From Rhizobium tibeticum (GTDB lineage: Bacteria; Pseudomonadota; Alphaproteobacteria; Rhizobiales; Rhizobiaceae), in contig NZ_FOCV01000008.1 of the NCBI RefSeq assembly GCF_900110205.1, forward strand, positions 1-64,000: DNA of 64,000 bases, in the 5' to 3' direction. A program made the translations under genes and the position numbers. Positions 46,649 through 62,170 of the stretch are shown here, one piece after another (position 1 is the stretch's first letter; every line of letters starts with the position of its first letter). A model generated the notes under the pieces. It worked only from the letters and a program-made list of their open reading frames with translations. It was not told the DNA's origin and ran no database searches.

Positions 46649-46663
46649 TGGTGCCAGAAGAGG
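46649..46663. repeat. candidate attL: imperfect copy of the tRNA-Leu 3' end
   Basis: TGGTGCCAGAAGAGG here matches TGGTGCCCAGAAGAGG at 61447-61462 with one missing C. A GGGAAT also precedes both, offset by two bases. The position at the start of the A/T-rich zone and inside the last chromosomal gene's downstream region is what tRNA integration predicts. The missing base weakens the case. Confidence 0.55.
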
Positions 46664-46723
46664 CAGTAAATTCAAGAGATAAGTTTTTGATATTCAATCA
46701 AAAGATCTGCATACATTGCCGCA

Positions 46724-46745
46724 AGTACCAACAATAGTACCAACA
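46724..46745. repeat. left integrase arm-type repeats
   Basis: Two direct copies of AGTACCAACA (46724-46733 and 46736-46745), separated by two bases. The same decamer occurs just inside the right end at 61316-61325. Paired decamers near both ends are typical of tyrosine integrase arm sites. Confidence 0.65.
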
Positions 46746-47000
46746 CTAATTTGCGCTCGTCGGTGGGCGGCGACTTGGGACCGTACAGCTCGGCGACGTC
46801 AAGCGTGTAACAATTCGTGATCGCAGCCTAATTGGTGCGCGAAATCAATCGGCTGGACCACTTTGTATGTCGGTTGTATTACACTAACTCTTTGAAATAT
46901 CAAGCTATTTTGCCTCCTGGCGCTTTTGGCGAGCGGCAAGATCGGTTATCTTTGCACTTATAGCGGGCCATATGGGTCCGTAGGAAACCAGGAGCAAAAG

Positions 47001-47189
47001 ATGACTGCCACTGACCGTTTTATTCGCCTCGCCGACGTCCAGGATATGATCGGCCTGAAGGACAGCCGCATCTATCAGATGATCAAGGCCGGCGAGTTCC
47101 CGAAGCCGATCAAGCTCGGCGCCTCTTCGCGCTGGTCTCTGCGCGCCGTCGAGGCGTGGATGAGCGAACGCGCCAATGCGGCGGCCTGA
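47001..47189 (+). CDS. AlpA-family regulator/excisionase-like protein
   Basis: A 62-residue MerR-like winged helix-turn-helix protein: FIRLADVQDMIGLKDSRIYQ, then MIKAGEFPKPIKLGASSRWS and AVEAWMSERA. This matches the AlpA pattern (recognise, bind, wing with SRW). In P4-like elements and PICIs AlpA controls excision or integrase expression. AGGAGCAAAAG precedes the ATG at 47001. First gene of the left block. Confidence 0.88.
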   Translation: MTATDRFIRLADVQDMIGLKDSRIYQMIKAGEFPKPIKLGASSRWSLRAVEAWMSERANAAA

Positions 47190-47190
47190 C

Positions 47191-47805
47191 ATGACCAGGC
47201 CGCTTAAAAAGGAACTGCCCAAGGGCTCGCGCATAGGAGATTACGTTCGTCGGTTGATTGCCGAAGCCCGCGACGCAATGCCATTTTGGCAGTGGGACAA
47301 TAAAGACGTTCGGGCCCTTGGCGTTTGGGCGGAATTGAGGGGAGAGCGCCGCATCTGGGTGCTTCCGAGAGAGCTTGTTCGGGACGAACTAGTGTTGCCA
47401 GCCATTGCCAGCATCGAAGGACGGCAAGCCGCCGACGCGATGAAGCGTCAGGTCCCGAATGTACTTGACCATTACGTTGACCTGATTTGCGAAGACGCGA
47501 AGCGACAAGCGTCGGCGCGGGAGCGGTTGGCGCCGACGACCGACATATCGTGGGCCGTGGTAATGGTGGTGCTTGCAGCGCTGTACGACCGCTATGACGG
47601 CACCATCACAGCCAACGCGAACTATGAGCGCGCGGCGCGACGGCTCGGCGTAAACCGTGCAGCGGTTCGCCGTACAGACCAGGATTTTAGACGGCGGGCC
47701 GGCATGCTTCCGGAGCTTGACCGTGCGGCACTCTTTGCCGCGGTACGGGTCGCCATAGAGAGACTGGCAGAATACGACCGACAGATAGGCAAGCGCGCGG
47801 CGTAG
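47191..47805 (+). CDS. element protein of unknown function (204 aa)
   Basis: I do not recognise this protein. It is rich in charged residues and helices; a late segment NYERAARRLGVNRAAVRRTDQDFRRRAG looks like a helix-turn-helix, so DNA binding is possible. The start at 47191 follows the AlpA stop by one base; an ATG at 47176 would overlap it. Position between AlpA and the primase suggests a regulatory or replication accessory role, which is inference. Confidence 0.65.
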   Translation: MTRPLKKELPKGSRIGDYVRRLIAEARDAMPFWQWDNKDVRALGVWAELRGERRIWVLPRELVRDELVLPAIASIEGRQAADAMKRQVPNVLDHYVDLICEDAKRQASARERLAPTTDISWAVVMVVLAALYDRYDGTITANANYERAARRLGVNRAAVRRTDQDFRRRAGMLPELDRAALFAAVRVAIERLAEYDRQIGKRAA

Positions 47806-47896
47806 CCGGCCTGTTCGTCTCCGCGTGTGCTGATTTCGCTGTAGTCGAACACGGCCCTGCGCGAGCATCGGTTCTAAAACCTCCAAAGGAGCCGCG

Positions 47897-48172
47897 ATGA
47901 CCGCAAATGCTTATTCTGGCGCCGACGCCAATTTCCTTACTCTTGCTGAAGCCGCGAAGATCGCAGGGCGTTCCTATTCATGGGCGCGTGACTGCGCTGT
48001 CGATGGCCGGCTCGACGCACGCCGCTTTTCTTCCGGTGGCAAGATCCACGTAACCGTGGCCAGCCTTACCAACGTCATCGAAGATGAACGCCAACGCCAA
48101 GCCCTGCAGTCACCGAGACGGCCGCGCTTCAAACAGCGAAATCATCTCCGGCTCGCCGTCGACAACACTTGA
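47897..48172 (+). CDS. small HTH protein, excisionase-like (91 aa)
   Basis: LTLAEAAKIAGRSYSWARDCAVDGRLDARR followed by GGKIHVTVASLTNVI resembles the MerR-like helix-turn-helix plus wing of excisionase-type proteins. The tail is basic (SPRRPRFKQRNHLR). AAAGGAGCCGCG precedes the ATG. It lies just before the primase-helicase gene and may regulate it. Confidence 0.75.
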   Translation: MTANAYSGADANFLTLAEAAKIAGRSYSWARDCAVDGRLDARRFSSGGKIHVTVASLTNVIEDERQRQALQSPRRPRFKQRNHLRLAVDNT

Positions 48173-48229
48173 AAAACGATAGACCGGCCGAGCGGGATAG
48201 GCTCGACCGGTCCGAAAGGTAGTCCAGTA

Positions 48230-50821
48230 ATGCTTGAAGACTATAGCAATTCCGGTGCATCGAGGCAATCGGACGGTAGTTTCGCCGCGCAGTATGCGGC
48301 CCGCCAGGGTGCTCCTTTGCCGCCGCCGAAGATGAGCGCCGCGCCGAAGTCGGACACGACGGAATTAACAGCCGACGTTGGTCAAATGCGTTTCGTGCAC
48401 GCAACCGACAACAACAGAGGCTGGGATGCGTATTTGGCCAGCAAGCGCAAGGCCGCTGCGGTTGGGACCTTGAGCGCTCCTGCATCGCCCATGCCCGCGC
48501 CGGCCGCTGCCAAGCCCGCCGCCGCGACTGCAAGCCCGGAAGCATTGGGCACCAGGACCGCGATAGCCTTCCTGAAGAAATTCGATCCTGACGGCTGGCA
48601 TAACTTGACCGCCATTCACCCGACAAGGACGTACACCGGCAAGGATGGCAAACCCCATGCGGAGGTGCGTGGCAAGACCTTTGCTCCGGGCCAATGGGAA
48701 GAGATGGAAGATTGGATCAACGCGCGCCAGGGCGAATGGAACCTCTATTTCAGTGTCAATGAGCCGAGGCCCCGCGCGCCGGACAAGAAATTGCGCGAGG
48801 AGGATATCGGAGCCATTCGCGCTCTATGCTGCGACGTCGATCCTGAGGACGGGGCCGACATACTTGATAGTGAAAGAGTGCGTCTCCGGCGACAGGTAGA
48901 CAACCTTGCGGCCGGGCCCGTCCCGCCAACATTCGCGATCGACAGCGGAAGCGGTGTGCAGTCGTTTTGGCAAATGCGTGAAAAGCTGGACCCAGCGGTG
49001 TGGGTGCAGCAAGCCAAGGACATCGGACGAGGCATCGCCCATGCGCTGGACGGCGACCCGGTGCAGGACATCTGCCGCGTTATGCGGTTGCCGGGCACTA
49101 CGAACATCCCGAACGCTATCAAGCTGTCCAAGGGCCGCGTTGCGAGAAAGTCTGAACTCCTTTTCACGAACCCGTCGCGCTACTCGCTGGCGGACGTCGA
49201 TAGCCAATACCCTGCCTATGCCGCCGCGGCGAAGGAAGACAAAAGCGGTGCCATTGCGGAGGCCGAACGCGATCTCGATCAAAGCCTGCTACACGCCGGT
49301 CGCTACGAGGATCTGCCGGCCGATCTTCAGGACAGGTTCAACGATGCCCGCGGGCACTTCAAGAAGTTGGCCAAGTTGTGGGACAGCGGCGAGCACAATG
49401 GCAACGACGATAGTTATTCGGGCGGCCGCTTTGCTCTTGCTGGCTGGCTTCGCTGGTTGACAGAAAAGGGCAGTGTCGAATTCGACGTCAACGACTACGC
49501 TCAACTACTTTGGGTATGGGACCATGCAGTTGGTCCGCACGACGATCGCGAGGCAAAACTATCCGAGCGCGAAATCGCTCGAGCATGGGGGAACGCGAAA
49601 CCCAAGGAGCATTTCTCGCCGATAGAAGATGATGAAGCCGAGATAGCTGCGCAGGATAAGCAACTCCCGCTCGACGCGCACGCTGACGGCACGCCAAACG
49701 CAGACAAGGCCAAGGCGACGACTGGACGGAAAAGGTTCGAGTTCATGTCGCTAGACGACATAGAGCGGGCGTTCTTGGTCGAACCGAAAGAGCCGCTGAT
49801 CGATGGATTGCTAGATCAAGGCACGCTCTCCGTCGTCTATGGCGCGTCGAATGTCGGGAAGACGTTCATTTGCCTGGATATGGCATGGGCCATCGCCCAA
49901 GGGCGGCAATGGGCAGGTCAGGCGACTAGAAAGACGGGCGTCCTCTACATCGCGGCAGAAGGCGGCACCGGCGTGCTCGGCCGCGTCCTGGCGCTCAACC
50001 AGATCCATGGCCGCCCCGGCGCCAAGGACTTCGTGCTTCTGCGGTCGAAACTCAATTTTTACAAATCAGACGCTGACGCGAAAGAACTGCTGACGGAAGC
50101 GCGAGCCTATGGCCTAGAAAATATCGGCCTGATCGTTGTGGACACTCTCGCTCGCAGCATGGACGGCGGCGACGAGAGCGCCACCAAAGACATGAGCGTT
50201 GTCGTCGGGCATCTGGACAATCTCAGGAAGGCGACCGGCGCCCATGTCATGCTCGTTCACCACAGCGGCAAGGACGAGACGAAGGGCGCTCGAGGAAGCT
50301 CGGCATTGCGCGCGGCGACCGATACGGAAATTGAATTGCGGAAGACCGACGAGGAAAGCGCAACCGGCGGCACCATCACCACGACAAAGCAGCGCGATAT
50401 GGACGGCAGTTTTTCACGCGCCTTCACGCTCGAAACCGTCAAGCTTGGCGGCGGTGATCACAGAGAGGCTTCCTCCTGCGTTGCCAGGGTATCGGCAGAG
50501 AAAGCACAGCGCGGGTCCGCACCGACTGAACCGCAACGCGAAGTCATGGCCGCGATGGCCGACATGGGCGACCCCGGCGAAGCCTTCAGCGTTCAGGATA
50601 TCCGCCAGGCTCTCGGCCCAAGCGTATCGGACAACACCGTACTTCAGCGATTGAAGCGGATGAAGACAGCGGGATTTGTCCGAAAGGACGCCCAAGGACG
50701 TTGGTCACTTAGGACAGATTGTCCGGACAAGAAGCCCGAGAACTGGTTCGAAAGCCACGAAGCAGAGCCGGAAAACAGCGCGACCACTGGCGATAAGCCA
50801 GAGGCGCCCGGTTCAGGTTAA
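48230..50821 (+). CDS. primase-helicase replication protein (AEP-like primase plus RepA-type ATPase)
   Basis: An 863-residue multidomain replication protein. Residues about 110-320 look like an archaeo-eukaryotic-type primase: D202xD204 in CCDVDPEDG, IDSGSGVQSFW (239-247), and D280 followed by ICRVMRLPGTTN. Residues about 500-720 form a RecA/RepA-like helicase: Walker A GASNVGKT (538-545), then IGLIVVDTLARSMDGGDES as Walker B, and MLVHHSGKDETKGARGSSAL. A C-terminal winged-helix (about 770-835, SVQDIRQALGPSVSDNTVLQRLKRM) could bind origin DNA. GAAAGG lies before the ATG at 48230. The adjoining iteron-like array supports an origin-specific initiator, as for P4 alpha or PICI Pri-Rep. Confidence 0.85.
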   Translation: MLEDYSNSGASRQSDGSFAAQYAARQGAPLPPPKMSAAPKSDTTELTADVGQMRFVHATDNNRGWDAYLASKRKAAAVGTLSAPASPMPAPAAAKPAAATASPEALGTRTAIAFLKKFDPDGWHNLTAIHPTRTYTGKDGKPHAEVRGKTFAPGQWEEMEDWINARQGEWNLYFSVNEPRPRAPDKKLREEDIGAIRALCCDVDPEDGADILDSERVRLRRQVDNLAAGPVPPTFAIDSGSGVQSFWQMREKLDPAVWVQQAKDIGRGIAHALDGDPVQDICRVMRLPGTTNIPNAIKLSKGRVARKSELLFTNPSRYSLADVDSQYPAYAAAAKEDKSGAIAEAERDLDQSLLHAGRYEDLPADLQDRFNDARGHFKKLAKLWDSGEHNGNDDSYSGGRFALAGWLRWLTEKGSVEFDVNDYAQLLWVWDHAVGPHDDREAKLSEREIARAWGNAKPKEHFSPIEDDEAEIAAQDKQLPLDAHADGTPNADKAKATTGRKRFEFMSLDDIERAFLVEPKEPLIDGLLDQGTLSVVYGASNVGKTFICLDMAWAIAQGRQWAGQATRKTGVLYIAAEGGTGVLGRVLALNQIHGRPGAKDFVLLRSKLNFYKSDADAKELLTEARAYGLENIGLIVVDTLARSMDGGDESATKDMSVVVGHLDNLRKATGAHVMLVHHSGKDETKGARGSSALRAATDTEIELRKTDEESATGGTITTTKQRDMDGSFSRAFTLETVKLGGGDHREASSCVARVSAEKAQRGSAPTEPQREVMAAMADMGDPGEAFSVQDIRQALGPSVSDNTVLQRLKRMKTAGFVRKDAQGRWSLRTDCPDKKPENWFESHEAEPENSATTGDKPEAPGSG

Positions 50822-51106
50822 TTAGGCATCGTGGGTCGCACGTGGTCGCATTCGCAAATCCAAGGAAAGACGCGTATGTTCAATGCTTTATGCCAAAAGT
50901 GGTCGCAGTGGTCGCGGACTGGTCGCAGTGGTCCCGACTGCAACGGGTTTTGGTGGTCGCCGTGGTCGCCGCCTTATAAGGCGACCACGCGACCAACCCG
51001 CGGCTCGGCCAGTGAAAGACAGCCTGATTTTTCCAATGGCTTGGGCTTGGGCATTGGCATCGCGCGAATACCTCAAACGCCTTGTAGGCGGATCGGCGGT
51101 TAGGAT
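50822..51106. repeat. iteron-like array, candidate replication origin
   Basis: GTGGTCGC occurs exactly at 50842, 50899, 50908, 50953 and 50962, and inverted (GCGACCAC) at 50981. One-mismatch copies start near 50832, 50919 and 50928, with an inverted one at 50989. Neighbouring copies are often 9 bases apart. At 50962-50988 a perfect 9-bp dyad (GTGGTCGCC / GGCGACCAC) brackets GCCTTATAA. The array follows the primase-helicase stop directly, which fits an iteron origin; an operator for the following gene is the alternative. No gene is supported in the stretch. Confidence 0.7.
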
Positions 51107-51628
51107 ATGGCGACGGTCCAACAACGCCACCAGGCGCGCGGCGCGATCCTGCACTGGCACCGGAGCCTCCGTTCTTCACGCCCCAAGTGCGGGGCCAAAC
51201 GAAAGCATGACGGGCAGCCGTGTCAGCAACTCGCCATGAGCAACGGTCGGTGCGCATATCATGGCGGTCGAACTCCCAAGGGTGACGAGTGGCATAAGCC
51301 GAGATGGCCGAACGGCGACGCGTCCAACGCTGAAAAGCGGCTGCAACGCAAACTGCGCGATTTGGAACGGGCAAAACGGAAGCGCGACGCTCGCCTTGCC
51401 AGAATGACGCCCGAAGAGCGCGATCGAAGCGCGGCCAAGAGCCGAGCCGCCAGGCCGCGCCCGGCCAAGGAGCGCGCGGCCGATCGCGCAGCCAGAAAAG
51501 AGGCCGCGAAGACGCGCGCCCTACTTGCCGAAGAGCGACCGCGAGATCCTGCACTCGTTGAAATCGACCGCCAGATTGCAGAACTGGAGCGACGCGCGGC
51601 GTCCCTCCTTTTCGATATATTTGATTGA
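51107..51628 (+). CDS. HGG-motif phage-type protein (173 aa)
   Basis: An N-terminal Cys/His module CGAKRKHDGQPCQQLAMSNG and RCAYHGGRTPKG fits the HGGxST-type domain found in phage genes, often near terminase genes. The rest is a long, highly basic Arg/Lys/Ala-rich helical region ending in a coil-like tail (EIDRQIAELERRAASLLFDIF). It could bind DNA or RNA. The start at 51107 lies at the end of the iteron-like region. Confidence 0.7.
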   Translation: MATVQQRHQARGAILHWHRSLRSSRPKCGAKRKHDGQPCQQLAMSNGRCAYHGGRTPKGDEWHKPRWPNGDASNAEKRLQRKLRDLERAKRKRDARLARMTPEERDRSAAKSRAARPRPAKERAADRAARKEAAKTRALLAEERPRDPALVEIDRQIAELERRAASLLFDIFD

Positions 51629-51637
51629 GGTAACGCC

Positions 51638-51937
51638 ATGACAGACAAACGGAACGTCGCGGACATTCAACGCGACTTACTGACCAGAATTCACACTGAA
51701 GGCGTCCAAGCGGCGTATGAGGCAAGCCTAGCGGTCGCCCGCGATCCTAAAGCCCCCGCTCCGGCTCGAGCGACGGCATCGGCCACATTGTTCCGCGTCG
51801 CAGGTTATTTCGACCGCCAGGAACGCGACCAAGCAAAAGAACCTCACGAGATGACTGCCAGCGAGTTGCACGACGAGATCGCTCGCTTGGCGCGCCGGTC
51901 ACAAGACAAAGGCGCCGATGAAGATGTTTTTGGCTAA
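51638..51937 (+). CDS. small phage-type protein (99 aa), partner of the HGG gene
   Basis: Mostly helical and acidic: DIQRDLLTRIHTEGVQAAYE, PARATASATLFRVAGYFDRQ, PHEMTASELHDEIARLARR. It resembles small proteins I associate with phage genes just upstream of terminase, but I cannot name it with certainty. It starts 9 bases after the HGG gene, so the two are probably co-expressed. No terminase large subunit follows; the next genes are on the other strand. Confidence 0.6.
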   Translation: MTDKRNVADIQRDLLTRIHTEGVQAAYEASLAVARDPKAPAPARATASATLFRVAGYFDRQERDQAKEPHEMTASELHDEIARLARRSQDKGADEDVFG

Positions 51938-52182
51938 GCGCGCCGAAGGGGCACCACGTTGCCGCCGTATAGGTCGACGCCATACGAGGGACGAGCCGGG
52001 GCGGTGCTCTGATATGGGTTGAGCTCGTTGCGAAGAGCGTCCGCGCTCTCGCTTATCTGATCAAGCAGCCCAAAAATTCGGGTGCTCGTTTCGGTGGGCA
52101 AATTACAGGCCCGGATTTGGTCAGTAAGAAGTTTCGTCACACGGGTGATGTAATGCGCGCGCTGATCGGCGGGTAGAACCAT
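51934..52182 (-). CDS. small element protein of unknown function (82 aa)
   Basis: Helical N-terminal two thirds (HYITRVTKLLTDQIRACNL and IFGLLDQISESADALRNEL), then a Pro-rich tail. Its 3' end overlaps the convergent gene at 51938 by 4 bases. No family recognised. Confidence 0.55.
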   Translation of the reverse strand: MVLPADQRAHYITRVTKLLTDQIRACNLPTETSTRIFGLLDQISESADALRNELNPYQSTAPARPSYGVDLYGGNVVPLRRA

Positions 52183-52253
52183 GTCGTCGGTCTCATGTGT
52201 CGGTCGGAGTTATTGTTGGATCTGCGAAAGATACTCTCGACCGCGCGGGGTCG

Positions 52254-52535
52254 CTAGGGCTTTCGTCTCCCTCTGCGAAGCAACACTTGTTCCAACGCCC
52301 ATTTCCGCGCATCCGTTTCAGTCAGCCGCGGACGTGGCTTAGCGGCTTCGGCTTTTGCGGCGATCCGTGCTTTCTCGGCTTCGATGTAGCTCGCCAAATC
52401 CGCCTCGTCGATCAAGACGGGGCGCCCCGGCAAATAAGCGAGCTTCCCCGCCAGGCGCAGACGCTTAATTTTCTCCCGGCTGCAGCGAAGAATGGCGGCG
52501 ACTTCCGGCTCGGTCAAAAACCGTTGTTGTGTCAC
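52254..52535 (-). CDS. excisionase-like helix-turn-helix protein (93 aa)
   Basis: FLTEPEVAAILRCSREKIKRLRLAGKLAYLPGRPVLI is a MerR/Xis-type helix-turn-helix and wing, with DEADLASYIEAEKARI following. The C-terminus is basic. Its ATG overlaps the serine recombinase stop as ATGA, so the two are made together. It may be the directionality factor for that recombinase or for the integrase. Confidence 0.8.
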   Translation of the reverse strand: MTQQRFLTEPEVAAILRCSREKIKRLRLAGKLAYLPGRPVLIDEADLASYIEAEKARIAAKAEAAKPRPRLTETDARKWALEQVLLRRGRRKP

Positions 52536-53161
52536 GCTGCTCTCTCGCTTTCCTTGAGCCGCTTGGACAGTCGGAGCAGCGTGGACCGCGAGCAGCCTGT
52601 CGCCTTTACGATGTCATTCCAGCTCGCTTTGGCCTTCAACATTCGGGTGATGGCAGCGTTTCGGTCAGCGTCTTCCGGGCGGCCCTTGTAGCGCCCTGTA
52701 GCCTTCGCCTTTTCGATCCCCTGCGCCTGCCGGCGTCGTCTGTCTTCGTAGTCCTTCCTCGCGATCGCCGCGAGCATGTCGAGCATCATGGAGTTGATCG
52801 CGCGGAACATGCGGCCGGTGAACGGGTCGTCGCTATTCGTCAGCATTGCGTGCGAGGTGGGCAGATCCAGTGCAACGATGCGCACCTGGCGGCCATCGAT
52901 CTCGCGTTTAAGCGCCTCCCAATCAGCCTCATTAAGTCGGCTTAGGCGGTCCACTTGCTCTATCAGCAGCGTGTCATTGGGGCTGCAGTCGCTGAGCAAT
53001 CGGAAGAGTTCCGGCCGCTTCAGAGAGGCACCGCTTTCATTCTCGACGTAGTACGCGGCGATCGGAAAACCTTTCTCTTTGGCGAAGTCCTCGAGTTGAG
53101 CCTTTGCGCGCAGAGCATCCTGTTCCTTTGTACTCGCGCGGAGGTACGCCCGTATAAACAT
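52532..53161 (-). CDS. serine recombinase, resolvase/invertase family
   Basis: A 209-residue small serine recombinase. The N-terminal catalytic domain begins MFIRAYLRASTKEQDALRA with the nucleophile Ser10. It continues LIEQVDRLSRL, with Arg residues of the active site, a long E-helix (RMFRAINSMMLDMLAAIARKDYEDRRRRQ), and a C-terminal helix-turn-helix (ATGCSRSTLLRLSKRL). The start at 53161 puts GAGGGG at good spacing; 53167 is close. It is a second recombinase in the element besides the tyrosine integrase. Confidence 0.9.
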   Translation of the reverse strand: MFIRAYLRASTKEQDALRAKAQLEDFAKEKGFPIAAYYVENESGASLKRPELFRLLSDCSPNDTLLIEQVDRLSRLNEADWEALKREIDGRQVRIVALDLPTSHAMLTNSDDPFTGRMFRAINSMMLDMLAAIARKDYEDRRRRQAQGIEKAKATGRYKGRPEDADRNAAITRMLKAKASWNDIVKATGCSRSTLLRLSKRLKESERAA

Positions 53162-53290
53162 GTCCATTCCCCTCGTAGTTCGATTTGGATGGTTCGTTTG
53201 CATCCGGTTCGTTTTGGGTGGTTTCAGTGATGATTTCGGCGGCGGTTCTATGGGGTAACAAGGGGTTTCCTTGAGGTAGACCCAAAAGAA

Positions 53291-53524
53291 CTAGCCAGCC
53301 CTCAAGGCCAGCTTGCATCTCTCGCGGACGTCGAAGTGTTCGGTGTAAAGCGCCAGTACCTCGAGTTCGTCGCACCAGTCCGCAAGTTCGTCCGCGTCGC
53401 ATTGCGCTTTTGCGAGCTCCATTGCCGCCAAGGCGCGCTTCAGCAATGCAAGTTCCCTTTCGTGCGGCGTTCTGGACGCGCTCTTGCGTGAGCGGTATTC
53501 GGCGAGATCGATAACGTTGTTCAT
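53291..53524 (-). CDS. small element protein of unknown function (77 aa)
   Basis: A helical, charged protein (MNNVIDLAEYRSRKSASRT, then LLKRALAAMELAKAQCDAD). AGAGGG precedes the ATG. It heads the minus-strand block containing the recombinase and could be a regulator of that block. The direct repeats at 53566-53607 lie just upstream. Confidence 0.6.
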   Translation of the reverse strand: MNNVIDLAEYRSRKSASRTPHERELALLKRALAAMELAKAQCDADELADWCDELEVLALYTEHFDVRERCKLALRAG

Positions 53525-53933
53525 AGCAGCCCTCTGTGAAGCGGTGAGTGCTGCTAGATTCTTTTACGTGGTTCGTTAAGTCAAGCATTATCTTCACACG
53601 TGGTTCGAATATATTTAATAACATGCCTAACTCGCAAGAAACGCGTCGGTCAATGTTGCGTATTGTCTGCCAATGTTGGCCAACAAAGCGGACACAACCA
53701 ACAAACATACTTTCAACTTTCTCCAGTTTCGCCGACAGCGCGTCTGGACATACTCCAAAACCGGGGGTCGCCCCCTGGCATAGTCCAAATTTATTCCTAA
53801 AAAGCAGCAACCGCCGCCGACACAAAATTGCGCCACGCTGGAACTTTTGACCGCACTATCTGGGAGATTTGTTCGACTTTGCGTGCGTCGTTTCTGTTTG
53901 AGACGAACAAACCGGACGACCATTATTCAGTGC
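53525..53933. promoter_or_regulatory. divergent control region upstream of the ejection-type operon
   Basis: About 409 bases with no supported gene between a minus-strand block and the plus-strand block. Direct repeats of ACGTGGTTCG sit at 53566-53575 and 53598-53607, with start points 32 bases apart (about three helical turns). A TATATT lies after the second repeat and could be a -10 box. The layout fits a shared regulator of both blocks. Confidence 0.5.
53566..53607. repeat. direct repeat ACGTGGTTCG, two copies
   Basis: Two identical 10-base copies spaced by 22 bases. Probable operator sites for a regulator of the divergent blocks; the binding protein is unknown. Confidence 0.55.
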
Positions 53934-54461
53934 ATGACGATCTGGACGCACCACAGCGAAGATTACGACGGCTTGCCGCCCGACAACATCGTGATAGGCG
54001 CTGGCGAGACGGAGCTCGATTACTCCGTCAACATGCTGCAAACCTATCTCGGCCACGTTGCTCGGGGCGATGACGTCGCGTGGAACGCGTCCCACGCCGC
54101 GCTCTTTCTCCAGACCGGAATATCCCGTCGCGCGCCGCGTATCACAGAAGGCCAGCGCGACCGGCTGCTTGAAGCTCTGATCCTTGCGCGCCCGGCAATC
54201 CTCGCCCTTTTCCCGAGCCCAGGCGAACGGGAGTTGGCGTCACGGGGCGTCGATGCAATGGCCGGCCTGATCTTTTACTGGAATGAAGACGACGCGCAGC
54301 GCAGCGCTCGGCACAAGCATGTCTATCTCGACATGCGGGCATATGCGCGCCGCCTGCGAAACGCCTGTCACAACCACTGCCTGCTTAACGAGATCCGCGA
54401 ACGCGCCGTTGAACGCCGGAGCGAACTTGTCGCGGACATGCTCCGGAAGGCAGCGGCATGA
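53934..54461 (+). CDS. element protein of unknown function (175 aa), first of the ejection-type operon
   Basis: I do not recognise it. It begins MTIWTHHSEDYDGLPPDNIV and has helical stretches (ITEGQRDRLLEALILARPAILALF, HVYLDMRAYARRLRNACHNH). The ATG at 53934 is chosen over an extension to 53847 that looks less protein-like. It is joined to the next gene by an ATGA overlap. As the first gene before two virion-like proteins, it may be a small ejection or assembly factor; that is inference. Confidence 0.6.
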   Translation: MTIWTHHSEDYDGLPPDNIVIGAGETELDYSVNMLQTYLGHVARGDDVAWNASHAALFLQTGISRRAPRITEGQRDRLLEALILARPAILALFPSPGERELASRGVDAMAGLIFYWNEDDAQRSARHKHVYLDMRAYARRLRNACHNHCLLNEIRERAVERRSELVADMLRKAAA

Positions 54462-54925
54462 CGATGGACGCGCCAACTACCGCCCGCCGCCTCGTCGAAA
54501 CGGCAATCGCGCATTTTCGCTCCGCTCTGACGGCAGAGAACGCAGTCGTTCCGGCAATTCGCGCGCTCGACGATCTGGTGACGGCGGCGGTCGCTTGGCC
54601 CGATCTCGGCGACCACGAACCCGGATTGGCGGCCAGGGTAAGCGAGCTCGCGTTCGCGATAGCGCCGCGCGTCGCTGAAGGCGTTGCCGGCGCGATTGCC
54701 GCAGATCGCGTCTATTTTGGCCTGGCCGCCGGGGCTGCATTGCTGACAGCCAAACCGGACAACCTGCACGCCGATCGAATTCTGCACGCCGGGCTTATAG
54801 CCGCTGAACTTAGGGCTGCCGTCTGCCGCTCTGAACTCAAACGTCGGAATGATCCCCTCGGGCGTGCTGTCACCGCGCAGCGCGCATGGGAAGCGCCGGC
54901 AGACCACAACGTTTCACTCCAGTAA
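54458..54925 (+). CDS. element protein of unknown function (155 aa), second of the ejection-type operon
   Basis: An Ala-rich, probably helical protein (VETAIAHFRSALTAENAVVPAIRALDD, AAELRAAVCRSELKRRNDPL). Several hydrophobic stretches (VAEGVAGAIAADRVYFGLAAGAALL) could associate with membranes. The start overlaps the previous stop as ATGA, and the next gene starts 10 bases after its stop. Confidence 0.6.
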   Translation: MTMDAPTTARRLVETAIAHFRSALTAENAVVPAIRALDDLVTAAVAWPDLGDHEPGLAARVSELAFAIAPRVAEGVAGAIAADRVYFGLAAGAALLTAKPDNLHADRILHAGLIAAELRAAVCRSELKRRNDPLGRAVTAQRAWEAPADHNVSLQ

Positions 54926-54935
54926 GGCGCCCCCG

Positions 54936-56438
54936 ATGTCATCCATTGTCGCCAATCGCTACTACAACAATCCGGAAATCGGCCAGGCATTCAGTTCGCT
55001 GGCGACCCTTTTCGCTCCGCCTAGCGGCAGCGACCTTGCGGGATACGCAGCGGCCGGCGCAAAGCGCGCGGAAGCGGCGCGGCTAGCCGAGCTTTTCGAC
55101 TACTCCAAGAACCCGAATTTCAACCAGACCGTCTTTGACCGCATGGGTGTGGGCGCGGGCGCATATGCACCGAGCCAGTCCTACTACAGCGTGGATCAAG
55201 GCAACGCGACGACCCGGCGCGGCCAGGATATCGCGGCGCAAACGTCGACGGCAAACAACGCAGCAGACAACGCGCGCGCTCTCCAGACGAGCGCCATGGA
55301 CAATCAGCGCTCGGCGATCGCGTCGCTTTACGGCCCGCTGAGCGAAGGACAGGTAAGGCCCGCCGTGCCGGCCGATATCGCCGCTCACGTCGGTCTGCCA
55401 GCGATCGACGAGGCCAAGGGAGCGGCCAAGCCCCTCACGACGGACGAATGGCAGGCTCAAAACGCGGAGCGTCTGCGCCAGTCGGGCGCCATTGGCGACC
55501 AGCAGTTGCTTGATGCGATCATGGGCAAGGAGACGCCCGTCCAGGCAGTTGGGCCGGATGGGAAGACGCCGGTCTTCATGACGCCTGGCGCCGCCACCCG
55601 TACCGGCGCACAGCCTTACGACCAGTCTGCCGACAAGTCGCTTGTCGAGGGCACGGCGCTTGTGAACGGCAAGACGATGCAGGTTTTCCGCCGCCCGAAC
55701 GAAAGCATTTATCGCACTGCCGACGGCCAGCCGATCCCCACAGACATTCAGGTTTTCGACAAGGCGCGGCCCGTCGGCACGAGCGACCAGATCGGCATGA
55801 AACAGAGCGAGTTCACGCAGAAAAACGCGATGTTCTACAATCGCGCCGCATCTGCCGCCGCGAACCTCGAGGATCTGCAAAACAACAAGGGTTATGCGCC
55901 GGGCGCCGCCGACTACGAATTGATGCTCGGCAAGACCGGCGATGTCCTGCCGCTCTCCCTGTCGAATAACCTCGTCTCTCCCGAGGGGCGGCAGTTCTAC
56001 AATTCCGCCATGAACTTCATGCTGTCCGTGCTGCGGCCAGATACGGGCGCGGCATTCGGGCGCGAGGAATTCCAGAACTACGCTCGCGTGTTCATTCCGC
56101 TGCCGGGCGACGATCCGCAGACAATCGCCGACAAGAAGGTTGCGCGCGACACCGCCTTGGCAGCCTTGCAAGGTTCGTCCGCGGGCGCTGCCGATCAGAT
56201 TACCCGCATCATGCAGGCGAACGGCGTTCCGGTCCCACCGGAGATGCTGGCGCACATGCAGGCTGCACAGGCGAATGCGCCGACACAATCCGTACAGCAG
56301 TCCGCTCAGCCGCAGAGCTCGGCACAACCTTCAGGCGATCCGTTGGCCTCTGCACGGGCCGCGATCGCGAAGGGGGCGCCTCGCGACAAAGTTATTCAGC
56401 GCCTGATCGATAACGGCATTGATCCGAAAGGTCTCTAA
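54936..56438 (+). CDS. probable phage internal-virion/DNA-ejection-type protein (500 aa)
   Basis: A largely helical, Ala/Gln-rich protein. The section FMLSVLRPDTGAAFGREEF, then NYARVFIPLPGDDPQTIADKK, matches a pattern I associate with large internal proteins of podovirus-like prophages; this is from memory, not a search. The N-terminal 110 residues are low in hydrophobicity and rich in Ala/Asn/Gln. The C-terminal region (about 430-470) is Gln/Ser/Pro-rich and probably disordered. It has AAGGCG upstream and is followed without a gap by the next gene. Confidence 0.65.
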   Translation: MSSIVANRYYNNPEIGQAFSSLATLFAPPSGSDLAGYAAAGAKRAEAARLAELFDYSKNPNFNQTVFDRMGVGAGAYAPSQSYYSVDQGNATTRRGQDIAAQTSTANNAADNARALQTSAMDNQRSAIASLYGPLSEGQVRPAVPADIAAHVGLPAIDEAKGAAKPLTTDEWQAQNAERLRQSGAIGDQQLLDAIMGKETPVQAVGPDGKTPVFMTPGAATRTGAQPYDQSADKSLVEGTALVNGKTMQVFRRPNESIYRTADGQPIPTDIQVFDKARPVGTSDQIGMKQSEFTQKNAMFYNRAASAAANLEDLQNNKGYAPGAADYELMLGKTGDVLPLSLSNNLVSPEGRQFYNSAMNFMLSVLRPDTGAAFGREEFQNYARVFIPLPGDDPQTIADKKVARDTALAALQGSSAGAADQITRIMQANGVPVPPEMLAHMQAAQANAPTQSVQQSAQPQSSAQPSGDPLASARAAIAKGAPRDKVIQRLIDNGIDPKGL

Positions 56439-58475
56439 ATGCCCGACGTTACGTTTGACGACTTGATTTCGCAGAGCGGCGTTCCTGCCAACAAGGGAGC
56501 CGTTTCTTTCGACGATCTCGTACCAGGCGCTCCGCCACAGGAGAAATCCACGCTTGCCGGCGACATCGCCAAGAGCATCGGCTCCGGTATCGTTCGCGGC
56601 GCCGCCGAAACTGTCATGCTACCGGTGACGGCAAAGCGCCTTCTCGATACCTACGCCACGCCCTACGAGGTGGGAGCGGTCAACGCCGTGCGCGGCGCAT
56701 TCGGCTACGATCCGTTGCCCGTACCGACCGCTGAAGAAATCGAAAGCGGTGGCGTAGATCGCGCCCTGAACGCTGGCCAGGACGCAGTTCGCGGCGCCAT
56801 GGACGAACATCTGCATGCGCCTGAGACGACCCCCGGCAAATATGCCGAGACTATCGCCGAATTCGCTGTGCCGGGCGGCGGGCCGTCGAGAGCCACGCGC
56901 GCCGCGCAAGGCATCGGTCGCCGGGTCCTGAGTTATGCGGGCGACGTTACACGGAATGCGGTCGTTCCTGGCGCCGCATCGGAGGCCGCCGGACAGTTGA
57001 CCGAAGGAACCTCCGCTGAGCCTTATGCACGCTTGCTCGGCGCAATTGCCGGGAATGTCGGGGGCGCTGTCGTCTCTGCCCGCACGCCCGAAAGCGTCCT
57101 GGCGCGCGCTGTTGGCGATCCCGAGCAAATCGATTGGGCGCGAGCTCTCGCCCTCCAGGACAATTCGACCGGCGTTCGCTTGACCGGCCCGGAGGCGATC
57201 ACCCATGCGCAGAACGGCGGCACGTCGCTCGCCGACCTTCAGCGGCTGACGGAGGGTTCAGTTTCGGGCGGGGCGCGCATGCGGCCGTTCCTTGCCGAAC
57301 GCCCCGCGCAGGTCGATACTGCAGTCAATCGGCTTCTTGATGCCATAGCGCCACAGAGTGCCAATCCGTCTACACTTGGCCCGCGTGCGTCCGAAGCGGC
57401 CACCAACGCCATCGACGATGCAAGACAAGCCATCAACGCGCAGACCCGACCGCTTTACCAGGCATCGGCGCCGGCCGTTATTCCCGACGCGGAGTTTCAG
57501 GCGATGCGAGCCGATCCGCGTTTCAGGTTGGCTTTGGAGCGCCTTCGCAACAATCCGGAAATTGCCCCCGGCTATGCCAATCTGCCGGATAACTCGGTTG
57601 GCGTTGTGGACGCCGTGACGAAGGATATGTACGCCCGCGGCGAGGCCCTGGCAAACAGTGCGAACCCCGGATACGCGCCAGAGATAGGCGCGCTCAACAC
57701 GCAGGCCGCCGCCAATGCCCGCGACGTGGCCCGCAACGTTTCGTCGGAATACGACCAGGCTTTGGCAGAACAGGCGCGCCTACGCCGCGAGCAGCTTCAG
57801 CCTGTTGCGGAAGGCCCCCTTGGACGCGTAGCCGCCGCGAGCACGACCTCTTCGGCCAGCGACGCGCTTCTGCCGCGAAACCCGCTCGTTGGCTCTGAAG
57901 GCGAAACAGCCGACGCAATGACCCGTCTGATGGCGCAAGATCCGGAGACGGCGCAAGCCCTCGCCCGCCAGTCGATCGCCGATCGCTACGCCCGCGCCGC
58001 GACGGAGACGCAATCAGGCGACCGGGAATTTGCAGGTGCCAAGTTCGCCAAGGACATCGCGGGCAATCAGCCACGCAACGCGGTCCTGGACGCGATACTC
58101 CGCTCGCTTCCTGACCAGACAGCGGCGACCGCCGCGCCCGAACTGCTGGACGTCTTGCGCGCCACAGGGCGCCGGAAGCCGATCGGTAGCGCAACGGAGT
58201 TCAACCGCGCCGCCAATGCCGAATTGTCGCAGGCTCCGCTTGCTCAACGCGCCGCGAATGCCGCGGGCACCTTCGGCGCTAGCCTGATCGCGAATGCCGG
58301 GGACGCTCTCAGCCGGGCGACGCTACGCGGCAACATCAACCGGCTTGCAGACATGTTCACCGATCCGAATTCCGTCGATCTCATCCGCGAGGCAATCGCT
58401 CGAGGCGAAACGGGGCTCGTTCCTCGCGCCGTGGCGCGCGGCACGGTTCAATCAGCAGTCAGTGAAAATCGCTGA
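56439..58475 (+). CDS. probable phage DNA-ejection-type protein (678 aa)
   Basis: A large Ala-rich protein. The N-terminus has two copies of a VxFDDL motif (DVTFDDLISQSGVP, GAVSFDDLVPGAPP), a pattern common in internal-virion proteins. The next region (about 55-150) alternates glycine-rich and hydrophobic helices (GSGIVRGAAETVMLPVTAKRL), then TTPGKYAETIAEFAVPGGGP, NAVVPGAASEAAGQLTEGT, and long helical stretches to the end. Such proteins can insert into membranes to build a DNA channel. It starts right after the previous stop (TAAATG), so the two are tightly coupled. No enzymatic (lysozyme-like) motif was seen. Confidence 0.65.
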   Translation: MPDVTFDDLISQSGVPANKGAVSFDDLVPGAPPQEKSTLAGDIAKSIGSGIVRGAAETVMLPVTAKRLLDTYATPYEVGAVNAVRGAFGYDPLPVPTAEEIESGGVDRALNAGQDAVRGAMDEHLHAPETTPGKYAETIAEFAVPGGGPSRATRAAQGIGRRVLSYAGDVTRNAVVPGAASEAAGQLTEGTSAEPYARLLGAIAGNVGGAVVSARTPESVLARAVGDPEQIDWARALALQDNSTGVRLTGPEAITHAQNGGTSLADLQRLTEGSVSGGARMRPFLAERPAQVDTAVNRLLDAIAPQSANPSTLGPRASEAATNAIDDARQAINAQTRPLYQASAPAVIPDAEFQAMRADPRFRLALERLRNNPEIAPGYANLPDNSVGVVDAVTKDMYARGEALANSANPGYAPEIGALNTQAAANARDVARNVSSEYDQALAEQARLRREQLQPVAEGPLGRVAAASTTSSASDALLPRNPLVGSEGETADAMTRLMAQDPETAQALARQSIADRYARAATETQSGDREFAGAKFAKDIAGNQPRNAVLDAILRSLPDQTAATAAPELLDVLRATGRRKPIGSATEFNRAANAELSQAPLAQRAANAAGTFGASLIANAGDALSRATLRGNINRLADMFTDPNSVDLIREAIARGETGLVPRAVARGTVQSAVSENR

Positions 58476-58504
58476 TCGATACCGGCCTCTTGGCAGCAGC
58501 GGAG

Positions 58505-59461
58505 CTATTTCCAAAGCGGCAGTTGTTCCCAATTAGCCGGAAAGCCGGCATCGGCAATGGTTACGTTGGGCGCGGCGGGAAAGGTAGCCATATGCGCCTT
58601 CAGACGTTCGGCCCATTTGGTTCGCGGGTTCACCAATTTCAGAAGGGTTTGCATGACCGAGAAGGCTGCATAGATCCTGCGGTTCCCACCTGGCGTATGC
58701 GCCAAGTGGTCCATTTCGGGCACCTCGCCTTGGCGCGGCAATGCCGGTTGATCGACCAAAGGCTTGTTCCAAAGTCGCGAATGGTGGGCGCAAACATTTC
58801 GGACACCGCAGAGCGCCCGTATCCATGATTTTATGAGGTGGGGCTGAAGGCCGCCGTAGCTCTTCGAAATGGTCTGCAGGTCCGCGTACCGCATTCCCGC
58901 AAGGAGGTGCGAGAGAGGGCCAAAATCGAGAAGTTCGACCGCGATCCAGATCGGCATGTGTGAGTTTGGATACTTCGAGCGAAAATGGTTCGCGAATTCC
59001 TCCTTGGACGATGCGGCTCTATCGTCCAGTTGCTTTAGCCAGCCGTCATGTTTTGAATTCTGGAACCCGGTTCCCGGCGTGGTGAACCTCTTATCTAACT
59101 TTTTGGGGTCGCGGTGACCGGTGGGGTCGTGGCTACCCAGGCATAGGGCAACCTCCGTGCGTATCGATACTTCGATCCGTTCGAGCGCGTCTAACGCCAA
59201 GAGCCGCAGGGTCTTGTCGAAGGCATACAGGGCCGTGACGTGCCCAAAATCGGTTCCGTCCTTAAAGTGATCGCCGAGCTTGTAGGAGCCGTCCGCCTGC
59301 TTCTCGATCTTTCGAAAGGGGTACCAATACGCACTCAGACGATAGTAACCAATCCGTTGAAGATACTCTTCGGCTTTGGCCGGATCGGCGATCAACAGCC
59401 CGCGTGATTCGAGCAGGGCTCGCTGTTGCGGAACTGGCAGGTGCGGTTTGTTATATGTCAT
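58505..59461 (-). CDS. Abi_2-family abortive infection protein
   Basis: A 318-residue AbiD/AbiF-type protein. The N-terminal pattern QQRALLESRGLLIADPAKAEEYLQRIGYYRLSAYWYPF is family-typical. The C-terminal signature RALCGVRNVCAHHSRLWN contains R221xxxxH226, the Rx4-6H motif of HEPN-type RNases. The likely role is phage-triggered growth arrest by RNA cleavage, inferred from family. It faces the ejection-type operon 29 bases away, on the opposite strand, in a slot where satellites often carry defence genes. Confidence 0.88.
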   Translation of the reverse strand: MTYNKPHLPVPQQRALLESRGLLIADPAKAEEYLQRIGYYRLSAYWYPFRKIEKQADGSYKLGDHFKDGTDFGHVTALYAFDKTLRLLALDALERIEVSIRTEVALCLGSHDPTGHRDPKKLDKRFTTPGTGFQNSKHDGWLKQLDDRAASSKEEFANHFRSKYPNSHMPIWIAVELLDFGPLSHLLAGMRYADLQTISKSYGGLQPHLIKSWIRALCGVRNVCAHHSRLWNKPLVDQPALPRQGEVPEMDHLAHTPGGNRRIYAAFSVMQTLLKLVNPRTKWAERLKAHMATFPAAPNVTIADAGFPANWEQLPLWK

Positions 59462-59581
59462 GGAAAATAAGAAGGCCGACCCTTGCGTTGCAGAGGGGCC
59501 GGCCGTGTCCCCCTCGATATGTGCTAGTCTCTGTCTATTGTCAAGGCCGCAATGGACGGGCGCGACGCCAGGTAGCTCGCC

Positions 59582-59968
59582 TTACACCGGCAAATTGTTG
59601 CACGGTCCCGACCGCGATGTTCCGACAATCTTCCAATCGTCTGCCGTGCCGCCCGGCCCTGTCAAAGCGGCTCGAATGAGAAGCTGGCAGGCCGATGCTC
59701 GCGTAATGCCCGGCGTGACCTGCGTTGCAGGGAGCGTGACATAGACCGGCGCGCCTTCGATCACGAACACCTTGCCGCCTGCGACGGGATAGGCGTTGAC
59801 CGGAACAAGGCCGGTCCGCGCAATGAACTCTGCCAAGGTCGTGCCGTGATAGGCGCTCAACCGGGCGTCTAGATTTGCGTTGAGTTGTGACTGGTATTCC
59901 GCGTTCGTCTGGCAACTCGCAAAACTCAATACCGCGGCCAAGCCGGCCGCGATCTTTATCCGTTTCAT
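59582..59968 (-). CDS. small lipoprotein of unknown function (128 aa)
   Basis: A signal peptide with a lipobox (MKRIKIAAGLAAVLSFASC) is followed by a mature part beginning QTNAEYQSQLNANLDARLSAYHG. There is one later Cys pair-like arrangement (SACQLL and GPCNNLPV). It starts at 59968 with the MKRIK leader; the upstream ATG at 59983 lies before a GC-rich stretch. As an envelope lipoprotein next to an abortive-infection gene it could alter phage entry, but nothing in the sequence proves this. Confidence 0.6.
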   Translation of the reverse strand: MKRIKIAAGLAAVLSFASCQTNAEYQSQLNANLDARLSAYHGTTLAEFIARTGLVPVNAYPVAGGKVFVIEGAPVYVTLPATQVTPGITRASACQLLIRAALTGPGGTADDWKIVGTSRSGPCNNLPV

Positions 59969-60055
59969 TCCCCACCCCCTCATTTTACCTGGCGTAAAAA
60001 TATCCTCGCATCATTGCTGTCATCAATTTCCGCTGACCGTCCGTCGGCCGCCCGA

Positions 60056-61261
60056 TTATGAGAAGATGTCTACTTTCTCGGCGCGGAGCGCGTCGATTTC
60101 GTCGGCCCACCATTTCGCCATGCGGACACGCTCATCCCAATAGAGCGCGCGGTGATACGCGCGGCGCACCAGATCCGCCCCGGCGTGGGCTAGTTCGGCC
60201 TCGATAGCATCGGCCGGCCATTTGCCGCTCTCGTTCAATAGGGTCGAGGCCGTCGCCCGGAAGCCGTGGCTTGTCATTTCGTCCGAACTGAAGCCCAGGC
60301 GCCGCAGCGCCCCGTTCAGCGTGTTTTCAGACATTGGGCGCTGGCGGGTATGGACGGCAGGAAAGACGCGTGCGCCGTCACCAGTGAGCTTGCGGACCTC
60401 TTTCAGGATCGCCACCGCCTGATCGGGAAGGGGCTTTCGATGCTCCCGGCGCATCTTGGCCCGCTCCGCTGGAATGATCCACTCCCGCTTATCCAGATCG
60501 AATTCCGACCATTCCGCTTGTCGCAGTTCGCCGGGGCGCGGATAGAGGATCGCCATAAGCTTCAGAGCGGCGCGCGTCTCCGGCATGCCGTCATAGGCCC
60601 ATATGGCCCGGAGAAGCCCGGCGAACGTATCCCGTTCGGTGGCGGCGGCCCTGTGCGTCACAGTGGGCGCAATAAGCGCGCCCTTCAGCGCGCCGGTTGG
60701 GTCGTTGACTGCCCTGCCTGTCGCGACCGCATACCGGAAGACTTGGCCGATCGTGGATCGAAGCCGGCGGGCGCTTTCATAGTTCCCGTCTGCCTCGACC
60801 TTGCGCAGCGGTATGAGGATTTCGGCCGCGGTGATTTCCGCGATTGGCCTCTTGCCCAGGTCGCCGCGGGCGAGGCCGATTAGCCATTCCTTCTTCGCGA
60901 TCGTCGCCGCCGCCTTGCCCTCGCGCTTGACCTTCGCAATGAACTCGTCGGCAATAACCGCGAAGGTGGTTTCGTTCGACGTGCGGCTGACGGTCTTTTC
61001 GATCTTCGCCTGGTGCGATGGGTCCAGCCCCGCTGCAAGATGCTTCTTGGCCTCGTCGCGGCGCTTGCGTGCGTCAGCAAGACTAACGGCCGGATACGCC
61101 CCGAAGGCCAATGTCCGCTGTTTGTTGTGGAACCGGTATTGCATTCGCCAGAGCTTCGAACCGCTCGGCGTGACGAGCAGATGCAGGCCGCCAGCATCGC
61201 TGTATTTCTTTGCGGCCGTCTGGCCTTTCAGATTGCGGATTTGGACGTCGGTGAGGGCCAT
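60056..61261 (-). CDS. P4-type tyrosine integrase
   Basis: A 401-residue site-specific recombinase. The N-terminal DUF4102-like arm-binding part (about 1-90: YSDAGGLHLLVTPSGSKLWRMQYR, GAYPAVSLADARKRRDEAK) precedes a core-binding domain and a catalytic domain. The catalytic residues are R247 (PRPGELR), H332xxR335 (HGFRATAST), H359 (ELAHAG) and the nucleophile Y374 (RALYWDER). It ends 30 bases after the previous lipoprotein region and starts about 185 bases from tRNA-Leu, the usual place for a tRNA-targeting integrase. Confidence 0.95.
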   Translation of the reverse strand: MALTDVQIRNLKGQTAAKKYSDAGGLHLLVTPSGSKLWRMQYRFHNKQRTLAFGAYPAVSLADARKRRDEAKKHLAAGLDPSHQAKIEKTVSRTSNETTFAVIADEFIAKVKREGKAAATIAKKEWLIGLARGDLGKRPIAEITAAEILIPLRKVEADGNYESARRLRSTIGQVFRYAVATGRAVNDPTGALKGALIAPTVTHRAAATERDTFAGLLRAIWAYDGMPETRAALKLMAILYPRPGELRQAEWSEFDLDKREWIIPAERAKMRREHRKPLPDQAVAILKEVRKLTGDGARVFPAVHTRQRPMSENTLNGALRRLGFSSDEMTSHGFRATASTLLNESGKWPADAIEAELAHAGADLVRRAYHRALYWDERVRMAKWWADEIDALRAEKVDIFS

Positions 61262-61263
61262 TT

Positions 61264-61325
61264 TGTTGGTACCGGAATAGGCGCGAGTGCGTTGGTAGCG
61301 ATGAATACCAACGAGAGTACCAACA
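61264..61325. repeat. right integrase arm-type repeats
   Basis: AGTACCAACA occurs at 61316-61325, a near copy AATACCAACG at 61304-61313, and inverted near copies at 61264-61273 (TGTTGGTACC) and near 61290. These mirror the two copies at the left end (46724-46745). Confidence 0.65.
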
Positions 61326-61380
61326 AAGGCAGTGGATGCAAGTGGGCGGCGGTGGACAGCAACAGGGCCAAAGTAACAAA

Positions 61381-61405
61381 AAAGCCCGGAAAAACCGGGC
61401 TTTTT
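61381..61405. terminator. bidirectional terminator between integrase and tRNA-Leu
   Basis: A 9-bp stem (AAAGCCCGG / CCGGGCTTT) with a 5-base A loop and T tracts on both sides. It lies downstream of tRNA-Leu on the minus strand and on the element side of the tRNA end, so after integration it would be the tRNA terminator supplied by the element. Confidence 0.8.
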
Positions 61406-61446
61406 GCGCTTTCCTCATGTCCAGTGGACCGGGAAAAGTGGGAATT

Positions 61447-62139: not shown

Positions 62140-62154
62140 AGGGGATTCAGATTC

Positions 62155-62170
62155 TAGGCCGATCGGCCTA
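62155..62170. other. 16-bp perfect palindrome between convergent genes
   Basis: TAGGCCGATCGGCCTA is fully self-complementary with no loop. It lies between the convergent BA14K-like and SelW-like genes. It could fold into a weak terminator or be a protein binding site; neither is shown. Confidence 0.4.

Follow-up and report, generated by a model that had tools for sequence, protein, structure and literature searches.

In the P4 alpha/ori and lambda O systems, iterons are read by the initiator. In SaPI Rep helicases, the C-terminal domain recognizes an origin of short repeats directly 3' of the helicase's own gene, and specific binding to a putative origin was shown for the C-terminal domain of SCCmec Cch2, as stated in the available part of one account (PMC7581432). 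The PrimQH family of the PrimPol-PV1 supergroup, as far as the available text describes it, combines a primase, a helicase (RepA-type in some members) and a C-terminal winged helix; a PriCT-1/2 or zinc domain follows the primase in 84% of the members, many of the elements lie in tRNA genes, and the winged helix, according to the authors, might recognize the origin (PMC5862659). In pRN1, a stem-loop origin of ~100 nt, without iterons, lies 3' of the gene for the primase-helicase ORF904 (PMC4234260, available part), and a satellite with an initiator of another kind, RepA_N, is described in the available part of PMC7145576. The available part of PMC11773190 held nothing on an origin of the kind considered here, and a search of titles and abstract starts, with subscription journals mostly outside its scope, yielded no description of arrays after RepA-type helicase genes.

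An earlier note on the 64-kb stretch of Rhizobium tibeticum DNA analyzed here (the window) had proposed an iteron-like array next to a primase-helicase gene as a replication origin. Our reading, which we hold to be very probable, is that this array is the replication origin of a 14.8-kb element at tRNA-Leu and is bound by the element's primase-helicase through a predicted winged helix.

The integrated element and its primase-helicase gene

The following features of the element were located computationally.

46650-61462, no strand: integrated element of 14.8 kb with short imperfect direct repeats at its ends; empty site in the relative G008
46650-46663, no strand: left end repeat, one base fewer than the right repeat and the relative's empty site
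61448-61462, no strand: right end repeat, at the 3' end of tRNA-Leu (gapped comparison with the empty site)
46926-47189, + strand: AlpA-type regulator/excisionase of the element (PF05930, E = 8.4e-12)
60056-61261, - strand: tyrosine integrase of the element (PF13356, PF22022, PF00589)
48230-50821, + strand: primase-helicase gene, 863 aa, with an archaeo-eukaryotic-type primase region, a RepA-type helicase (AAA_25) and a C-terminal winged helix (profile matches, motifs, model)
50510-50719, + strand: codons of the predicted winged helix (residues ~761-830), the proposed reader of the repeats (predicted structure)

In the empty site, on contig C1 of G008, the match to the left flank ends and the match to the right flank begins within one short sequence; the flanks meet there at the tRNA-Leu 3' end, and the bounds of the element were therefore set at 46650 and 61462. 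No exact attachment repeat of 14 bases or more was found, and it was the gapped comparison with the empty site that revealed the imperfect one. The element, which already has a tyrosine integrase, also encodes a serine resolvase with its own HTH_7 domain (52532-53203), an Abi_2 abortive-infection protein (58505-59461) and, in two long adjoining genes (54849-58475), proteins of 529 and 678 aa that matched nothing in Pfam, PHROGs or NCBIfam at the limits used. Elsewhere in the window, a stretch of ~45 bases at about 62143-62189, partly palindromic by eye, recurs widely in genomes of the same genus and is a dispersed repeat.

The primase-helicase matched PF13481 (AAA_25) at residues 501-683 with an E value of 1.5e-38, the only Pfam match up to E 0.001, with no DUF927 or D5-type helicase domain among the results. 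Its sole sequence match in the PDB (up to E 0.01) was RSF1010 RepA (1g8y; E = 7.5e-5). PHROGs primase families matched residues 164-293 and 153-293, and the primase motifs CCDVD and SGSGVQ occur at residues 200 and 239; Pfam gave no match to a PriCT-1/2 or zinc domain after the primase. The full-length AlphaFold2 model, at a mean pLDDT of 42, was poor everywhere but in the C-terminal domain, where the winged helix that had been postulated earlier was indeed predicted, as a helix-helix-helix-wing fold with pLDDT values of 83-92 by ten-residue blocks over residues 771-830. The C-terminal piece modeled alone reached a mean pLDDT of 67.5; Foldseek returned no match below E 0.001 with it, and a second-look aligner placed it closest to the winged helix of DNA-bound Zur (4mtd; Z = 12.3 over 90 residues; rmsd of 2.4).

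The repeat array after the stop codon

Recounting the coordinates gave full agreement with the earlier note, which had reported five direct and one inverted exact copies of GTGGTCGC, together with near copies, in 165 bp directly 3' of the primase-helicase gene. The sites are as follows.

50832-50996, + strand: iteron array, the proposed origin (repeat counts)
50780-50787, - strand: inverted exact copy within the 3' end of the primase-helicase gene (repeat count)
50842-50849, + strand: exact repeat GTGGTCGC
50899-50906, + strand: exact repeat GTGGTCGC
50908-50915, + strand: exact repeat GTGGTCGC
50920-50926, + strand: 7-base copy TGGTCGC (word scan)
50929-50935, + strand: near copy TGGTCCC (word scan)
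50953-50960, + strand: exact repeat GTGGTCGC
50962-50969, + strand: exact repeat GTGGTCGC
50970-50983, no strand: perfect 14-bp palindrome CGCCTTATAAGGCG at which the repeats change strand (sequence; hairpin of the surrounding repeats)
50981-50988, - strand: inverted exact repeat
50989-50995, - strand: second inverted 7-base copy (word scan)

The exact inverted copy at 50780 lies outside the interval of the earlier note and was absent from it. As the 7-mer TGGTCGC, the repeat has six copies on the + strand (that at 50920 included) and three on the - strand (50780, 50981 and 50989), with one-mismatch copies at 50702, 50833 and 50929. The 8-mer occurs 8 times in the 64-kb window against 3.25 expected, a number reached by 3 of 100 shuffles, and 7 of these 8 fall within 50780-50988. 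The pattern TGGTCGCN{1,4}TGGTCGC occurs 5 times in the whole 7.06-Mb genome, 4 of them in the array. Spacing had been described as 9 bases for many copies, which is true of 50899/50908 and 50953/50962; other adjacent copies are 8-11 bp apart, and larger gaps follow 50843 and 50929. As is typical of iterons, then, these are short direct repeats about one helical turn apart (8-11 bp, with two larger gaps) that adjoin the element's replication gene, the first exact 7-base copy lying 22 bp past the stop codon. The DNA beside the repeats is not strongly A/T-rich (59% A+T over 50849-50897, plus the TTATAA core). The perfect dyad with an A/T-containing core in which the array was said to end was recovered as the palindrome at 50970-50983.

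The last direct and inverted copies can pair as a hairpin (-24.4 kcal/mol; z = -5.75; none of 200 shuffles equally stable), which is the one observation in favor of taking the array for a transcription terminator, an RNA hairpin or a chance simple repeat. We regard this as extremely improbable: neither an intrinsic-terminator pattern nor an Rfam match was found at the array in the respective scans, 8 copies of the 7-mer in the array stretch were reached by 0 of 100 dinucleotide shuffles, and copies at related loci keep a spacing of mostly 8-12 bp irrespective of their word (see below).

Conservation of the layout at related helicase genes

Related helicase loci were drawn from PF13481 matches. 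This family presumably also takes in DnaB- and RadA-like proteins, and since matches were found in all 297 genomes, only the strongest were sampled. Set 1 consisted of 20 of the 30 loci of a first list, all 30 loci of a second list and 60 further loci among the matches listed there; L001 (same place as L045), L005, L010, L013 and L023 (frame open to the locus end) and L015, L016, L020, L021 and L028 (short or broken matches outside the motor) were dropped, and L002 (short downstream DNA; same locus as L039) was left out, giving 109 loci. Several near-identical copies from G355 and some weak-end matches were also left out. Set 2, from genomes new to the analysis, comprised 23 of the 29 loci L136-L164 (the other six lay in set 1 genomes) and 60 further matches, some genomes giving several loci; 80 of its 83 loci came from outside the window's order, and L172, L182 and L189 came from its own family or order. 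An array was scored when the region from -60 to +240 bp around the helicase stop codon contained at least 5 copies of any one 7-mer, on either strand, inside a span of 200 bp.

By this measure, arrays were present at 49 of 109 loci in set 1 (48 of 108 if the window is excluded; near-identical loci are counted) and at 39 of 83 in set 2. Control stretches had arrays in 0-2% of cases overall: in set 1, 1/442 in-gene, 1/571 upstream and 6/388 more than 500 bp downstream, with 2/10,900 dinucleotide shuffles; in set 2, 0/374 in-gene, 3/408 upstream and 1/366 far downstream. Extending the stretch to +440 raised the counts to 53/109 and 43/83. Array centers were concentrated 0-150 bp past the stop codon (48/109 and 38/83), with 9-17 in the adjoining 150-bp bins and 0-4 per bin beyond 300 bp either way (an array may count in two bins). 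Same-strand neighbors were mostly 8-12 bp apart irrespective of the word, in 172 of 254 pairs up to 40 bp apart in set 1 and in 117 of 184 pairs up to 30 bp apart in set 2. The 60 set 1 and 44 set 2 loci without an array by the same measure, roughly half of the related helicases, indicated that the helicase alone does not imply an array.

Over the 88 arrays, which had a median of 10 sites, the median start of the first repeat (from -60 on) was +2 bp relative to the stop codon. This bears on the idea that the repeats are operators through which a regulator, perhaps the helicase itself, controls the surrounding genes with no replication start involved. Short repeats next to genes are commonly operators, and in the records examined the array occupies the space that separates the helicase gene from the gene that follows; against this, the position of the array is tied to the helicase gene end, a simple consensus scan of 50600-51300 detected no sigma-70-like promoter, and in Rhizobium phage RHph_N65 the next gene is on the opposite strand and therefore does not have its promoter region in the array. 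An operator role thus appears quite unlikely to us.

The earlier note had held that the repeats should be conserved where the primase-helicase is. This was true of the layout, at 45% and 47% of loci in the two sets against the control values above, but not of the exact word, which did not recur beside other strong helicase matches. The pattern TGGTCGCN{1,4}TGGTCGCN{1,4}TGGTCGC identified at least 118 loci in genome contigs (mostly of 8 kb or less) and, in viral contigs, 90. At none of the 208 loci so listed did the word directly follow a further strong helicase match, although these loci are short and distant helicases would be missed. Any helicase match at all was present in 4 of them. The only strong one, in L384, was rejected as a relative of the array, being 2.5 kb off and having repeats that resemble a coding tandem repeat. 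Peptide patterns of the primase-helicase retrieved no close relatives in genome contigs and one 41% match in viral contigs, at L031, where the array is weaker (4 copies of CGTCGCA) and a CCCTTTAGGG palindrome is present.

Several loci of other genomes, L237, L240, L256 and L266 among them, have 9-13 copies of TGGTCGC in ~500 bp with no helicase match within the locus. In viral contigs, tandem GCGACCA, the same word as in the window, occurs in L362 (~9913-9941), L389 (~1384-1412) and L360 (~296-324), apparently within a gene for a winged-helix replication protein, as judged by eye from the DNA; possibly one DNA word was met independently in these cases.

A palindrome was scored as at least 3 C, then 2-6 A/T, then at least 3 G. 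It was present in 21 of 49 arrays in set 1, compared with 10 of 60 array-less loci, 9 of 442 in-gene and 13 of 571 upstream stretches, and in 14 of 39 arrays in set 2, compared with 5 of 44, 13 of 374 and 9 of 408, respectively, so that 2-4% of in-gene and upstream stretches had it. Repeats lay on both sides of the palindrome in 32 of 35 arrays, and the flanking repeats were on opposite strands in 29 of these 32, compared with 273 of 733 other neighboring repeat pairs. The window's own palindrome, CGCC-TTATAA-GGCG, fails the C-run/G-run pattern; its plan and the change of strand are the same.

Among 23 plasmid records with a match, 7 were examined, picked mostly for small size, and in 4 of these, circles of 17-38 kb, the helicase gene is directly followed by an array, of 6-12 copies:

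Caenibius p1, 38 kb: TGCGGAA, 12 copies, directly 3' of the helicase gene
Methylobacterium currus unnamed4, 35 kb: CGCAACA, 8 copies, directly 3' of the helicase gene
pMRAD08, 21 kb: GACCGGA, 6 copies, directly 3' of the helicase gene
Klebsiella circle with capsid, terminase and integrase genes, 17 kb: TGCCGCA, 6 copies, directly 3' of the helicase gene

Methylobacterium FF17 pD had a weak array of 3 copies, and the two IncQ-type plasmids, which have a separate initiator RepC, had none after repA; by the palindrome pattern, one of the two had no match and the other matched once, at a CCCCCATGGG within its primase gene. The M. currus and FF17 plasmids encode a separate Toprim protein beside the helicase, indicating that the array needs no fused primase. 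The GC skew of pMRAD08 and of the Klebsiella circle does not point to the array. Of 1346 phage records with a match, 6 were examined; arrays were present in Roseobacter phage CRP-811 (CTACAAA, 11 copies) and RHph_N65 (GCGGAGA, 12 copies) and absent from Caulobacter GB2A, Mycobacterium AlanGrant, Mycobacterium Bobby and ctyzp037.

The Klebsiella circle (L128, CP018459.1), with its capsid, terminase, integrase and RepA-type helicase genes, resembles an excised capsid-forming satellite; chromosomal copies of its helicase region (94-95% identical, at least 80% covered) occur in 4 of 5426 Escherichia coli genomes, and any match occurs in 7.

Partition (centromere-like), packaging and recombination sites can be repeat arrays too, and an array of this sort might serve as one of these instead of as an origin. 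The distances make this very improbable, in our judgment: the M. currus array is at the helicase gene, ~11 kb from parA, that of the Klebsiella circle is ~4-5 kb from the integrase and terminase genes, and that of the window is 9 kb from the integrase.

The repeat word and the helicase C terminus

Words were compared over the 49 and 39 arrays, or 44 and 34 without near-duplicate C termini. Over all pairs, similarity of the C terminus and of the word were correlated in set 1 (rho = 0.309, 0/1000 permutations; 0.247 after adjustment for motor and word base composition) and in both sets together (rho = 0.149, 0/1000), and not significantly in set 2 (rho = 0.065, 83/1000). The motor was also correlated with the word in set 1 (rho = 0.210, 1/2000), but little of this correlation remained after adjustment for the C terminus (0.087, 104/2000). 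In set 2, the link appeared solely among pairs with recognizably related C termini, and the restriction to such pairs was chosen after the nonsignificant all-pairs result in that set. With this restriction (score of at least 0.20) and without near-duplicates, word similarity exceeded the background in set 1 (0.591 versus 0.410, 27 pairs) and in set 2 (0.553 versus 0.376, 18 pairs), values reached by 0 of 2000 permutations in either set; at thresholds of 0.15, 0.20, 0.25 and 0.30, each set had 0 or 1 of 2000 permutations as high as the value observed. Equally many pairs with the most similar motors and unrelated C termini had word similarities of 0.464 (set 1) and 0.371 (set 2), the motor similarity of these pairs being below that of the C-terminus pairs (0.36 versus 0.46 in set 1 and 0.28 versus 0.49 in set 2).

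Some pairs fail, namely, L044/L068 (C terminus, 0.49; word, 0.32), L166/L116 and L180/L116. A case noticed by eye is that of RHph_N65, Caenibius p1 and two other genomes, which carry GCGGAGA, TGCGGAA, GCGGAGA and TGCGGAG; the C termini of the latter three are 24-26% identical to that of the phage, with R-Y, G, K, G and V positions in common. The window's own C terminus has no related one in the sample (best score, 0.11), and its pairing with GTGGTCGC is accordingly deduced from the class. Judged from these sequence comparisons, the repeat word follows the helicase C-terminal domain more than the motor among related C termini.

It is also conceivable that the repeats are an origin read by another protein of the element or the host and not by the primase-helicase, since about half of the helicases have no array and the two IncQ-type plasmids, with the same motor family, use a separate RepC. 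Such a reader is decidedly unlikely, given that the word tracks the C-terminal domain above the motor among related C termini and that in four plasmid records that differ in gene content the array is still located by the helicase gene. Layout at the stop codon and a word that follows the C-terminal domain are as expected of iterons bound by their own initiator. The proposal that the array is a candidate replication origin is thus supported, at the level of sequence, by the layout at 49/109 and 39/83 loci and by the word following related C termini.

From this we infer a course for excision, binding and its stoichiometry, opening of the palindrome, ring loading, priming and the direction of replication. 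The element would excise, and several copies of the primase-helicase would dock on the repeats through the C-terminal winged helix, each repeat taking one protein and successive repeats lying about a helical turn apart. Because the repeats change strand at the palindrome, two helicase rings could face opposite ways around it; the DNA would open at the palindrome, the rings would then load, and the primase part would start strands for a host polymerase to extend.

More broadly, we see an even chance that phages, satellites, phage-plasmids and integrated elements have in common a large class of self-loading initiators, made up of RepA-type (RecA-fold) helicases whose C-terminal winged helix can be exchanged. 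Each would read its own word in an array at the stop codon, two opposed rings would load around a palindrome of the CCCC-A/T-GGGG kind, and wing and word would change together. The shared layout extends a single guess to a rule by which candidate origins of replication can be located across a large group of mobile elements, and the 88 helicase/repeat pairs (78 without near-duplicate C termini) could serve for testing the choice of DNA word by the winged helix. If right, the origin reading would also hint at which of the satellites, phages and phage-plasmids might use the same origins or be rivals for them, and if wing and word do change together, origin compatibility among these elements might be read from sequence.

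Relation to described systems

Compared with the systems outlined above, the likeness to SaPI Rep and Cch2 lies in repeats 3' of the helicase's own gene that would be read by its C-terminal domain and, possibly, in two rings. As described in the available part of that account, however, the motors of those proteins are of the DUF927 or Primase_Cterm/D5 type and belong to staphylococcal elements, whereas the window has a RecA-fold RepA-type motor; unlike the SaPI/SCCmec system, that of the window occurs in its phylum and in the named Pseudomonadota records and has a palindrome where the repeats flip (PMC7581432). The protein itself resembles PrimQH, with a P-loop RepA-type helicase, a predicted C-terminal winged helix and, by eye against the available description, motif I (hhhDhD) as CCDVD at 200 and the Gln/His motif II as SGSGVQ at 239; the available text names no such origin, whereas here candidate origins and their words are given, with a fused primase or without (PMC5862659). 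With pRN1 it shares a primase-helicase with a C-terminal winged helix and the location of the origin, a candidate one in the window, just 3', the layout being kept and the sequence not; ORF904 differs, in the part of the account available, in its SF3 motor, its stem-loop origin and in that no specific binding was seen (PMC4234260). RSF1010/IncQ RepA (PDB 1g8y) has the same motor family by sequence but differs in its separate initiator RepC, the two IncQ-type plasmids examined having no array after repA. The P4 alpha/ori and lambda O systems differ from the window in protein family and in position. The array system would be a variation on the known helicase-read origins, with a possibly general rule behind it.
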